From the NCBI GenBank assembly GCA_009746045.1, contig RPFO01000595.1, positions 629,010 to 693,009 of the forward strand: 64,000 nucleotides of DNA. Reading direction: 5' to 3'. The translations under genes and the position numbers were made by a program. The notes below the pieces were generated by a model. That model saw nothing but the letters and a program-made list of their open reading frames with translations, had not been told where the DNA came from and searched no databases. This DNA is from Mesostigma viride. Its lineage: Eukaryota; Streptophyta; Mesostigmatophyceae; Mesostigmatales; Mesostigmataceae. Of the stretch, positions 3,703 to 38,100 are shown one piece after another (position 1 is the first letter of the stretch; the number at the start of each line of letters is the position of its first letter).

Positions 3703-6700
3703 GTGAGTAACACATGCGTGGCAGTCCGAGAAAAGTATGCATGCCTGGCAGTTCGAGAAACGCATGCATGCTTGGTTGTAATGTGCATGCTTGGTGGCAG
3801 TCTGATGCTAAGCGGCCACAACAGTAAATGAGCAGCTTTTCCCTGTCGAGCGCGAATCTCTGTAGCTGGCTAGCTGCTCCTAGATCTAGTCTTCCATATT
3901 GTATAATTTTCTTCACAAACATTTGAGCTAATATGCCGTGTTACTTGCCCTACTACACCTACAGGGTGACTGTTGGCCTGTTGCACGTGTGAGGCATACG
4001 TCTAGTCGTACTTGCATGACCTCTTTGATATGCATTTGCGTGAACTGCTGACTGAGAATCTCAACTGACAATGACCTAACATTGACTCGACTGGCTTTTC
4101 AACTGCCCTGCTGTCCTCTCCCCCTGGCCCCCCGGACAACTCCAAACACGCCACTGCCACTACCACCACCGCGCCGCCGCCGTCACCACCGCCACCACCA
4201 CCACACACTATTTATTACTGGCCATTGTCACTGCCATCATACCCCACCTCCATCACCATTGGCCGTCATTACGCTGGCAGCCATCCCCGTCACCTCCCCC
4301 TCCCTCCTCTTCAGTGTGCGCGGCCAGGGGGGCGTCCCCCCCATGCCTGCAATCGCGGTGGGCCCCGACCACACCATCGTGATCACGCGCTCCCAGTTCA
4401 ACCGCGCCATCTACACTGTGTCCACGCGCGATCCCTGGCTCGTCGTGAAGACCTCCTTCCTCAATTACTTCTTCCGGTCGGGCACCCCCTGCCGTACCGG
4501 CCCCTTCGTCGACTCCGCCTACACCCTCTACGACCACCTGGCCGACCGATGGCTGCTCTACGAGGTGGCCTACGTGAGCGGCCGCACCTACCTCTGCCTC
4601 GCTGTCTCACTCAACAACATCGCGTATGGTATTCTGTACCGGGGCTACACGATCACCCTCCCCCCGACGACGCCCCCTGGAGACATCGTCATGGGCGTCA
4701 TGCCGGAAGCCTACTACTTCACCACCACAAGGGAGGGCGTCGCTGCCGCGTATGCGCTGGACCGGCAGAAGCTATTGGGGGGTTCGACGCCGCGTTCCCT
4801 CGTCCACGTTGTAGTAAGTGTCATGGTCACTAGAAACCGGTCACTATACCCCGGATCTGATGGAACCCTAGAGAGATTTTTGTTTGGTGGGCTGCAGTAA
4901 GTACTTTGTGGGTAAGATGTGGCAATAAAAAGTCCTGTGTCCACGCAATACTAAGCCCTCTGCCTGCTTGTGGCAGTGAGAGAAGCTGTAGTACAAGCTA
5001 CTAAGTCGAGGGCGCCCTCCCTCCTTGTGTGTAGGGGTCGAACGTTCCCTTTACTGGTACCCACGTGACGCAGTCTAGGTGCTAATGGACAAGTGCTTTG
5101 GTCTCGATTCCGATAACCCGGCTCTAAAGGAATCACTATCCGATGCAACCCAGCTGGGGAGATCTTTTGTTGGGGGGGTTGGGCACCGTACTCCATGGTC
5201 CACGTCACGGTACATGCTGGTCCTGGTCACTATAAACCGGCCGGTAACCATAACATAGTATATGCTGGCAATGAGGTGCTGCAGTCCCTCGTCCATCACT
5301 AGTGATGTCACGATGTGAAACGGTTTCGGGTATCGCTATAACCAGTGGAGAAACCTCTGAATGAATCACGTTATATGATAGTCACTGAATGAATCAATAC
5401 TACAGTCTACAACCTCAATTGGTAATGTGCGATGTAGCATCTGATGGAATTCCCTCGGGAGAATTCGTAGGGGCTGGGTCCGGCGCCGCGCTTTCTCATC
5501 CATGTCATGCATGGTGAGGCCATGGATGATATTAGTACTTATTTTCAAAAAAGGGGTGCCCTCGCGAAGCCTGGTAAGGGTCACTTTTACCTGCAGTATC
5601 CATTCTATAGAAGACCATGCATGGTTCGAGGGTTCTTCAACAGTCCCGCGCCCATGTTATGTACAAGTTGGGCCCTGGTGATCTATGTGTTCAACTATCT
5701 ACTAACTGTCCGTATGGTTTCCAACCTAGAAACTATAGCGGACTGATCACAAGGTTCACTGCATGGTCAATCATGGTCTCAACATCGTCCATTGGTGCCA
5801 TGGTGGCCGGTGGGTCCATGTCTAGTATTTGTCCTATACTATCCCTATCTAGTATTTGTTATAAAAATAAAAAGTCGGGACACTTCAGGAAGCTGCTCCT
5901 TCCAGATCTCACTTCTATGGGATCGAATCACATGGCATGCACTGCCCGGTGCAATCATGCTACCCCACGTAACCCCACCATGATCTGATGGCTGTGCTTT
6001 CTCCCCAACAGGCACCCCCCCTGGCAGGTTTCCAGCGCCAGGGCTTCATGCCTTCCCACCTGCACGGCCTGGTGCGGTCGACGCAACCTCCACAGTGCGG
6101 CCTGTTCATCCGCCAAGTGGACGACGAGGCGCACAACCCTGGCGACGCGCAGCTTGGCACGGACTTCTTGGAGCTCTGGCAGCTGTGCGCCAGCTTCGTT
6201 GGCCCATCCAACTGGACGCAGGTGAGCTCAGGGGGATAAACAGTCAGCTTGGATATTTCACTGTCCATATGTTATAATTGCAATGTCATGTTATCCATGT
6301 CGATTAGAGTTACATCCCGGAGCGCTGAGAGCCGATTCGATGAAAACAGTGATTCGGGCCGTGGTGCCCGCAACCCTGCGGCTAGAAGCTATAGCTTCTA
6401 GTCGCACGTAGATTGCGTCACGTGAGCGCAAGTCCTCAGTGGGATGGCGATGGAGCGGGATGGATAATTATCTATACAATTAGCAATATGAATTCATTAA
6501 ACGTTACGTCCCAAGCCGTTTGCCGCATTGTGCAGGGCTACCTTGCAGCACATTGTCTCCTTCTTCCCACCGACATCAGACGAAGCAGAGAAACTCTCTG
6601 TTTTTACTCTCTGAGTTTGCTTCTCTAAGCTTGTCTCCCTCCATGACGAAATGTTCTGTACTAAGTTTCCATGGCTTATATGGCTGGTAGCCAACATCAT

Positions 6701-35100: not shown

Positions 35101-38100
35101 GAAATCATGTTTGTTGAGTCATCCATGCACTTGTTGGGGCTTCCTACCCCCATCTATACGCCATTACTGTGCTATACATAGAAAATGACACTATTTAGGG
35201 CTGGGTATGACCCAGCCAATGCACACATTTGCTAGCAAAAATATATGTGGCGTCCATAGTGCCCTGAGTTTGTAGCTTCCTGAGCTATTTACATCATGCA
35301 TTACCTTGAACGTCGTCAATTTCCCCGCAAAACAACCCTTTTTTTACCAGACATTGGGACTAAACATGTCATACACATTTCAGATAAAGTGTAGCAAAAA
35401 TCTGGCTAACAGGGGGACAGCTGTGGTCCGAGTCCCGGGTCATTCCGACAAGTCTAGCTCAAGTTAAGGTTTTGCGTGCTAAAGCCTGAACATACGCGAA
35501 ATCAGGCTTTTCTTTGTATAAGGCCACTGAGACATGATGTTTTCCATCCAAGAAGAAAAAAAACATGCCCAACTCGATCACACAACATGAGAAAAAGGCT
35601 GGGCACCTCATCTGCCCTTGCCCGCCCTCCCTCGGCATGGCCAACCTTGCCAGCGTGGGCATAGCAACACCATCGCTAGGAATACATGCCAAGAGAGCAT
35701 ACACTATGCTCAACCCAAGGTTACCATGTAAACTTAATGCCAAGAAGCCAGCAAATGTACGTGCACGCACCTTATAAAGACTGCCCAAGCAATAGAGACA
35801 AATGCAGGCTGTAAACTTGGCAGTAAATCTTACATGCTGTCTGCCAACCATTCAGGTCATATCCAGCTTGCCTTTCTGCACACATAGCGGGGAAGTCTCT
35901 CAACTCAATGGTTATAGCTCTAGGAAAGCCAAGGAAACACCTATCTAGTGCCATGCCACTTATGCAGTATGGCCAGCAAAAGAACCACTCTCACCTTCCT
36001 TTCCAACATGGTATTGCGACGTGGTAGAAGCTGATGCCAGCTCGTTAGCCCCTAGGCACAGGTCGGATGTCGTTGCTAAAAAAGCCGTGTCAGATCCTGC
36101 ACAAAACAAAAGCGTCTGCGCAAAGCTCATGTCCATATGATTATGGAAAACAAATGCCAACAAATTACCATCAAACTCGGCGCCTTAATCATCCCAGCCA
36201 CAAATTACACAAAAACCGTAAGAAATTGCTAGGAATCTGACGAAGCAACCGAAAGAAATGGCGAGCTTTCGCAGGGAAACTGTCCCCCAAAATGGCGAAA
36301 GGCCGTCGTTAACGCACTTGCCTGCGTGGAAATGTTTGATGCATAAACTGGCACGCAAGCGCGAACAATGAAAGCCATCATCCATAGCCAGGGCGCCCAA
36401 GAAAGGTGTGAATTCCGTGAATACGTCGAAGGCGACATGCGCAGGCCTGCGTAGGTTCTTACCTTGAGTGCTGGATGTAACAAGAACGGAAAGCTCCGGC
36501 ACAAATTCGATAGCACCATTAAGTTAGCTTCCTAATCGCTCTTTAGAGCCTACCTTGCCTCGCAATCGCTGCCGTAAGCCTGCATTAAGTTTTGTTATCC
36601 GCAAAAGAAATTCCATCCTGGACCCCCTCGTCCGTAGCCGCTCGAGAAACTAGTAATATTGCAAACCATACATCTCCCGCCATGAAAGGAGGTCGTCAAC
36701 TAATCTTCTTCAGAATTTACGCATTTTTCTAGCGTTTCCCGTGGCATGTTGACTACTATTTCCTAAAGGAACGCCGCCACATGGCCACCTCCGCAAGGTT
36801 TGCGCGCTCTGGGCGCACACTTTACACGGTACGCACGGTACCGCAAGTTTTGTCACGCGGAAAATATTCGCCGCGCCGCGTCCCCTTAAATCGTGATTAA
36901 AGAACATCCCCTGACGCTCCTCAATCATAATTTTCACGCGTTATATGCACCGAGTTGCTCCGCACGTGCCACGTGGATGAAGGGTGCAACCTATTCGGTG
37001 CGTTCTACCTACCCTTCTCTCCAACACCTGTTTCACGTTCTACACGATATGCCTATGGTCTGTTTAATTATACTGTCATCTCCTATGGCTTTTACTTTGT
37101 ACTATTCCTCCCCAGACCACCAGCGTCGACTGGGGCCTTACTCATACTATCCTCTCTTATGGTTTGTACTCTGTGCTACTCCCCGCCTCACGCACAGACC
37201 ACCAGCGTCGACTGGGGCCTTAATTGGAAGCCGGCCACCCCCACGGAGTTGCTCAACCCCGACTCCAAAGTGTGCCTCCTCCACCACTCCTCGGGGACTC
37301 TCCTGCTGGCGTACAACAACAGCACGTACGAGCGGACACCGCTCACGCTGGCCGAGTCCACCGACGAAGGTGACTTATACCTTCTCTCTCTCTCTCTCTC
37401 TCTCTCTCTCTCTCTCTCTCTCTCTCTCTCTCTCTCTCTCTCTCTCTCTCTCTCTCTCTCTCTCGTGCTAGTATTTGTTCTATGTATGGATACAAGAGCG
37501 TTTGCGAACGGACGCTGTTAGGGTTAACCCTGGCCGAGCCAGCCGACAAAGGGTACCCCTCTCCCCATTTCTATAGGTATAATAATATTCACACATGAAT
37601 GAACAAACATGATATGAATTCTTATATATGTATTGTATAGTTTGTAACTGATGTTTCTACTGCTACTAATTCCATTATGGATAGCTCTATTTTCAATCAA
37701 ATATGGCTCGTCTCTCCCTCTCTATCTGCTGGTGGTTGTGGTGGCATTGTTGGCAAAGATGAGGGGCTGGGCGTGCGTTTGTAGGCGTGGCCCTGTTTTG
37801 GATAAGTGAACATAATCAGAATCACGCTATTACCTGTTGTTAACTACAAAGTACAACAGGTGCACCGTTTGTCGCAAAGGCTGGTCAACGGTGTTAGGCC
37901 ACGTCACTTGTTAGCAATGTGAATGTAGTGTAGGAACCTGGCTTTTCTATCCTACACCCACGTCACTTGTTAGCAATGTGAATGTAGTGTAGGAACCTGG
38001 CTTTTATACCCTACATAGTCGTATTTTAGAGAGCTGCCTACATTAACGACAAGATTTCTGGTTGCCCACAATCCATGAAAGGTGACCACCAAGGCTGGCT

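Follow-up and report, generated by a model that had tools for sequence, protein, structure and literature searches.

Serial, decaying copies of splice junctions inside introns of two genes of the green alga Mesostigma viride

Two intron-rich genes in one stretch of nuclear DNA

The window analysed here is a stretch of 64,000 nucleotides (nt) of nuclear DNA from the unicellular streptophyte alga Mesostigma viride (contig RPFO01000595.1 of assembly GCA_009746045.1). It carries two genes on the plus strand, and many of their introns contain diverged copies of their own splice junctions, in which an exon end or start remains joined to the neighboring intron bases. An earlier note on this DNA, made from the letters alone, had claimed such copies for at least ten introns in two unrelated genes and had read them as the product of a continuing duplication across junctions. 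The copies were re-examined here with controls, and their probable origin is discussed below.

Gene 1 (3403..19319) is modeled as 15 exons in a single open frame and encodes a protein with cysteine-rich repeats and two similar halves. It is 68% identical in alignment to a Mesostigma paralogue (P0055) from exon 3 onward, and its exon borders from that point match those of the paralogue, the sole exception being exon 15, which is extended by one codon. Its splice sites are based on the open frame and the paralogue, with no annotated transcript behind them. Introns 1 and 2 are without support from P0055, and only inspection by eye links the proline-rich exon 1 (1-2551) to the rest; as neither intron contains copies, both were counted as negatives. 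No identical annotated protein was found for gene 1, and Pfam returned no family. Gene 2 (26057..39478) encodes a BNR/sialidase-like protein (PF13088, E 3.6e-37) in 11 exons separated by 10 introns. Its spliced translation equals P0001 (jgi/Mesvir1 Mv19425-RA.1) over 360 of 360 amino acids, and its outer splice sites are those used by the annotated protein. Intron ends were taken from the annotation for gene 2 and from the open reading model for gene 1. No common domain or product is seen in the two genes, which agrees with their description as unrelated.

Junction copies in their own introns

Each junction was represented by a probe joining 60 exon bases to 12 intron bases and compared with its own intron after masking of simple repeats, with an author-chosen cut-off score of at least 100. 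The sample comprised all 25 introns of the two gene models, beyond the places listed earlier, in genes that the earlier note had itself chosen for showing the pattern. A copy in the own intron was found for 10 of 25 donors and 5 of 25 acceptors, and 12 of the 25 introns contain at least one. These 15 positives among 50 junctions stand against 6 in 1108 comparisons with other introns of the window (donor probes 4/554, acceptor probes 2/554). Searches of the intron on the wrong side gave 1/23 for donors (upstream intron) and 0/23 for acceptors (downstream intron). Reverse complements matched in 0/25 donors and 0/25 acceptors, and exon middles matched their flanking introns in 0/20 cases. A first pass over 22 introns, with 200 shuffles each, placed 10/22 donors and 5/22 acceptors above every shuffle, with 0/44 for the reverse complement. 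Rank tests over all scores separate donors in their own introns from other introns (p 0.0002), and acceptors less sharply from the wrong side (p 0.11) and from the reverse complement (p 0.05); these tests are weaker because over half of the junctions lack a copy. The presence of junction copies in their own introns is thereby confirmed.

The cut-off yields 25 copies in 12 introns, and lowering it to 84 brings the total to 33 copies in 16 introns, 24 of them at donors and 9 at acceptors; copies scoring 84-99 were excluded from the main counts. Over the 25 copies, 865 of 1086 exon-side bases and 253 of 327 intron-side bases are identical across the junction. Since the copies carry exon together with adjoining intron bases, the duplication was an event in DNA, and what was duplicated is an unbroken piece of the genome that runs across the exon-intron border. 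The copies lie in direct orientation and adjoin their source, as expected of tandem internal gene duplication.

Arrangement of the copies along the two genes

All catalogued copies with an assigned strand lie on the plus strand. The series begins in intron 3 of gene 1, where two exon-3 donor copies, both with GT, are found at 5153-5232 and 5456-5525 (scores 133 and 119; earlier placed at 4814-5520). Intron 5 contains two exon-5 donor copies at 7314..7489 (178 and 102; earlier 7309-7475). An exon-7 acceptor copy that retains AG lies in intron 6 at 9220..9259 (155), followed in intron 7 by a donor copy at 9685-9763 (159) and two acceptor copies at 9936-9990 and 10159-10202; the intron 7 group spans 9685..10202 with scores of 159, 122, 166 and 92, and at 10149-10193 a weak donor match shares bases with the second acceptor copy. 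The place given before as 9225-10210 is borne out by the scores of 155, 159, 166 and 122. In-frame use of two 34-nt exon-like copies in intron 7 was considered and rejected, 34 not being a multiple of three by hand count.

Intron 10 of gene 1 has four exon-10 donor copies, at the place listed earlier as 13105-13565. They occupy 13101..13567 (scores 208, 201, 137 and 119) and lie 84, 264, 375 and 485 nt past the real donor, the score dropping with distance. Parts of the intron flank recur with the copies, and the mean column identity of the whole unit is 44%. An exon-11 donor copy in intron 11 (14255..14311, score 136) was not on the earlier list. The donor copies of intron 14 (16781..17486; earlier 16788-17340) are weak, scoring 100, 94 and 96, and two of them are one copy carried twice: a 304-base-pair (bp) tandem duplication of 99% identity at 16879-17486 has duplicated a decayed donor copy, producing a copy of a copy. 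At 11007-11147, also on the earlier list, a repeat of intron sequence precedes the acceptor (window scores 101-128), but no exon copy was detected.

The two halves of gene 1 (4281-11254 and 12913-19319) have introns at like places, exon ends 4/12 and 5/13 corresponding by eye. At the cut-off score, junction copies are present in intron 5 and absent from its counterpart, intron 13, which suggests that the copies arose after the internal duplication.

The first copy in gene 2 lies in intron 4 at 30017..30076 (score 123) and reproduces the donor at 29970. It bears out the first part of the place listed earlier as 30020-30175; of a second copy there, the one sign is a window score of 102. An acceptor-side 47-bp array of intron 4 lacks exon bases, and its rows were dropped from the copy table and from the nearest-copy count below. 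Intron 6 holds a copy of the acceptor at 33512 (33378..33439, score 154), also absent from the earlier list. Three copies of the donor at 33647 follow in intron 7 at 33716..33997 (160, 100 and 112, GT in all; earlier 33700-33990), and acceptor copies lie upstream of 34651 at 34335..34528 (103 and 101; earlier 34255-34650). This acceptor side is the mirror arrangement, with an intron flank common to copies 1-3 and hardly to the real acceptor. Intron 8 contains donor copies at 34858-34932 and 36946-37004 (172 and 112, GT in both; earlier 34789-37030) and an acceptor copy at 37107..37142 (146; earlier 37112), which matches 26 of 27 exon bases, the top exon-side identity. A donor copy in intron 9 (37492..37556, score 119) and a weak copy at 38519-38592 (score 84) are additions to the earlier list.

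Very long simple repeats at 12265-12868, 28248-29339 and 32726-33377 lie in introns upstream of acceptors; on the coding strand, the first two are pyrimidine-rich and the third is C-rich.

Age of the copies and decoy splice sites

Exon-side identity ranges from 0.71 to 0.96 among copies reaching the cut-off, in line with the proposal that they differ in age. The copy nearest to a real site mostly lies about 80-430 bp from it. Among copies scoring at least 84, GT is kept in 15 of 24 on the donor side and AG in 7 of 9 on the acceptor side. Scored with a matrix from the 25 real donors, 14 of the 15 retained GTs fall at or above the 88th percentile of 1378 intronic GTs. Local duplication across splice junctions has both added intron length and supplied decoy sites, as the earlier note held.

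Origin of the copies

The copies probably result from ordinary short direct tandem duplication that occurs without regard to splice sites. Short DNA stretches in these genes would be duplicated head to tail, perhaps through repair, slippage or template switching. Where the duplicated piece lay within an exon, the protein would be damaged and the event lost. A duplication that spans a donor or an acceptor would create two copies of that site; splicing would keep the outermost (the first donor or the last acceptor), the messenger RNA (mRNA) would be unchanged, and the extra exon end with its splice site would turn into intron sequence. The exon copy would stay under selection as the intron copy decays, and each later event would move older copies deeper into the intron. 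This order of events, selection as the filter and constant use of the outermost site in the cell are what we infer from the arrangement of the copies. Duplication may still be going on today, given the 26/27-base copy (96%) and the 99% identical 304-bp duplication; the earlier notion of a continuing process draws its support from these two and not from polymorphism.

A local direct copy within 1.2 kilobases (kb) was found for 156 of 676 intron windows of 60 bases, compared with 0.6% for an inverted copy and 1.2% for a copy at a place at least 9 kb away, which indicates that direct local duplication is general in these introns. Exon-body windows have a local match in 11 of 111 cases with a distant control of 23%, a control that is not clean because gene 1 has similar halves. 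Intergenic windows match in 104 of 514 cases, mostly in a minisatellite at 58.2-60.3 kb, with 7.6% inverted. Intron-only duplications are spread evenly along introns: windows with an intron-only copy (180/1019) lie a median of 270 nt from an intron end, all windows 260 nt, and the proportions within 200 nt of an end are 40% and 38%. The 37 windows with exon-derived copies have a median of 110 nt, with 73% inside 200 nt. Random-place duplication was also simulated, and events were retained if the coding sequence was unharmed and splicing still used the outermost site. Across 20 settings, the simulated ratio of exon-derived to intron-only copies was 0.08-0.21 with P 0.06-0.70; the observed value is 0.19. 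A process aimed at junctions is thus not required by the exon-derived share or by the positions of copies along introns.

The order of the copies speaks for this origin: the nearest copy is the top-scoring one in 8 of 9 arrays (intron ends with at least two copies; permutation p 0.0057). A first simulation, since superseded, in which introns shrank at low rates, had the nearest copy best in 7/9 and 13/18 arrays. Several results weigh against splice-blind duplication. Among the nine arrays, the donor side of gene 1 intron 7 includes a doubtful second match, which overlaps an acceptor copy, and gene 1 intron 14 includes a copy that was itself duplicated from another; without both, 6 of 7 remain. 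Judged by exon-side identity alone, several arrays change little with distance, so that the graded decay described earlier stands as a tendency by score. The observed share is 0.300 at junctions and 0.217 in intron bodies, a ratio near 1.4, with a bootstrap median of 1.37 (95% 0.76-2.58), against 0.45-0.88 in 24 simulated settings. Only 2 of the 24 fall inside both observed bootstrap intervals, and settings with a junction share of 0.27-0.35 overshoot the intron body (0.44-0.50). A bias toward junctions is hinted at by this ratio. Lastly, local direct copies occur in 0 of 8 non-intron 1-kb blocks versus 22 of 29 intronic blocks (Fisher p 0.0002). The eight blocks come from 19.3-25.4 kb (19320-25424) and 39.5-40.1 kb (39479-40100); seven are intergenic and one is at a ubiquitin-conjugating enzyme gene. 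A general neutral process predicts no such gap, since duplications ought to be no less tolerable in intergenic DNA than in introns.

The block contrast and the junction-to-body ratio, which exceeds all 24 simulated settings, are what a duplication tied to introns or transcription would produce, for example through R-loops or repair at junctions, with introns and their junctions duplicated more than other DNA. We regard this explanation as unlikely. The non-intron blocks represent only two independent stretches, local copies do occur in 5 of 8 blocks at 53.8-64 kb (a stretch that is largely mobile-element sequence), intron-only copies do not cluster near the ends of introns, and the share of exon-derived copies agrees with the untargeted simulation. 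Since the non-intron stretches are few and may be young, the contrast between intron and non-intron DNA is a lead and not a result. Equally doubtful is its more specific form, a transcription- or splicing-coupled duplication in Mesostigma that repeatedly copies the edges of expressed introns and spares nearby intergenic DNA; if true, introns would grow from their ends like a conveyor belt, with a graded fossil record of their own exons. A function for the copies, as alternative exon ends or as decoys under selection for splicing regulation, appears improbable, even though several decoy donors score as high as real ones in the donor matrix (10.4 at 9745 and 10.5 at 34923, where the real donors average 7.9) and mismatches to the exon are uneven over the three codon positions (81/406, 69/408 and 109/408, or 0.20, 0.17 and 0.27; chi-square p 0.002). 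Mismatch at the first two positions is not far under that at the third, 83 alignment gaps fall in the 28 copies scoring at least 95, and all 11 decoy donors tested (in 6 introns, of the 15 with GT) would lead to an early in-frame stop if spliced. Retention of GT and AG is also about what 80% identity leaves. By these signs the copies seem to decay almost as non-coding DNA does, under little if any coding constraint, and the third-position excess may reflect silent change of the exon since duplication. On the mismatch rates and gap counts, functional alternative exons were rejected.

Two further explanations were weighed. An origin in assembly or chance, from unresolved haplotypes, read errors or low-complexity similarity, is very improbable and already largely refuted. 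In its favor, simple repeats abound in the window (7462 bases masked), and two haplotypes could have been joined at the 304-bp, 99% duplication. Against it, exon-side identities of 71-96% imply more divergence than an assembly join would show, the simple repeats had been masked, and hardly any matches came from the shuffled, reverse-complement, other-intron or exon-middle controls. Slighter still are the chances of an RNA-derived origin, in which reverse transcription or reverse splicing returns exon ends to introns. The intronic location and sense orientation of the copies would suit it, but exon and unspliced intron occur together beside the own junction (the 253/327 intron-side bases above), and wrong-side matches arose in just 1 of 46 tests. 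RNA-mediated copying is rejected because the copies hold unspliced flanks, which spliced RNA could not supply. No joined-exon copies were noticed inside introns, although no search was aimed at them. Tandem duplication in DNA, blind to splice sites, remains the preferred account.

Neighboring features

The ubiquitin-conjugating enzyme gene lies between genes 1 and 2 on the minus strand as a single open reading frame (23667-24197; PF00179, E 1.1e-42). Farther along, a 7.4-kb stretch at 53.88-61.28 kb has inverted ends starting CTAGGAGCCGGGTGTTGACAAAGTGTGAC (borders by eye). These ends hold many TTGACAAA-type repeats, and a minisatellite of approximately 36-bp units lies inside. The stretch looks like a non-autonomous mobile element inserted beside sequence of a long interspersed nuclear element (LINE). 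LINE-like copies at 50.2-52.0 kb and 62.0-63.9 kb are 88.9% identical over 1.9 kb, and a reverse-transcriptase domain is found at 52668-53735.

Significance and comparison with known systems

The usual explanation for long introns is mobile elements along with other repeats. The published account of the Mesostigma genome likewise credits the long introns of this alga to repeats, with 30.1% of intron space repetitive and a mean intron of 1142 bp (PMC6947507). The copies described above make a second source of intron length visible, namely a series of junction-spanning duplications. Introns of this kind preserve old exon ends together with their decay, because selection maintains one copy of each pair while the other is left to change. 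They would make it possible to measure, one gene at a time, rates of duplication, silent change in exons and competition between splice sites, and the ready-made decoy sites would be a natural experiment on how the spliceosome chooses the outermost site. No description of serial, decaying splice-junction copies was recognized in a search of open-licence papers, judged by titles and the starts of abstracts. The type of duplication event is known; it is the serial form, enlarging existing introns and leaving graded junction fossils, that was not recognized in the literature searched.

The RNA-dependent RNA polymerase (RdRp) gene of potato underwent a tandem duplication across an intron-exon boundary (PMC4974935). 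As in Mesostigma, this was a local tandem duplication that included the acceptor and the exon start and crossed the boundary. The potato case, as far as the account goes, was one event that gave a new intron via a cryptic donor, whereas the Mesostigma copies are of many ages, lie in existing introns and would leave the mRNA unchanged.

Tandem genomic duplication has been put forward as a source of introns, in a review (PMC3443670) and in Drosophila cases (PMC2891723). The AGGT duplication model shares with the present copies a direct tandem duplication that includes splice-site sequence, with splicing absorbing the extra DNA. In that model, as outlined, an exonic AGGT is duplicated and an intron is created; in Mesostigma, an existing donor or acceptor is duplicated and no new intron is required. 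The copies found here do not bracket a new intron as a pair of exonic AGGT copies would; they lie inside introns, each matching one junction.

Internal gene duplications are a broader class. In the survey of Gao and Lynch of 2009, a minority of the genes in the surveyed genomes reportedly carry one. The Mesostigma copies resemble them in being partial, lying within genes and comprising exon and intron parts; they differ in affecting 12 of 25 introns of two genes, often as series. Duplicated alternative exons would keep the frame and change mainly at third positions, unlike the codon-position rates and gaps reported above.

Introners are elements copied into many genes (PMC9860276). They share with the junction copies the theme of introns that arise or grow from duplicated DNA. 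Near-identical sequence in many introns is their hallmark, and among the introns of the window only the 6 matches in 1108 comparisons were found. Unlike Introners, so far as the source describes them, the Mesostigma copies adjoin their source and rarely match other introns (the 4/554 and 2/554 given above).

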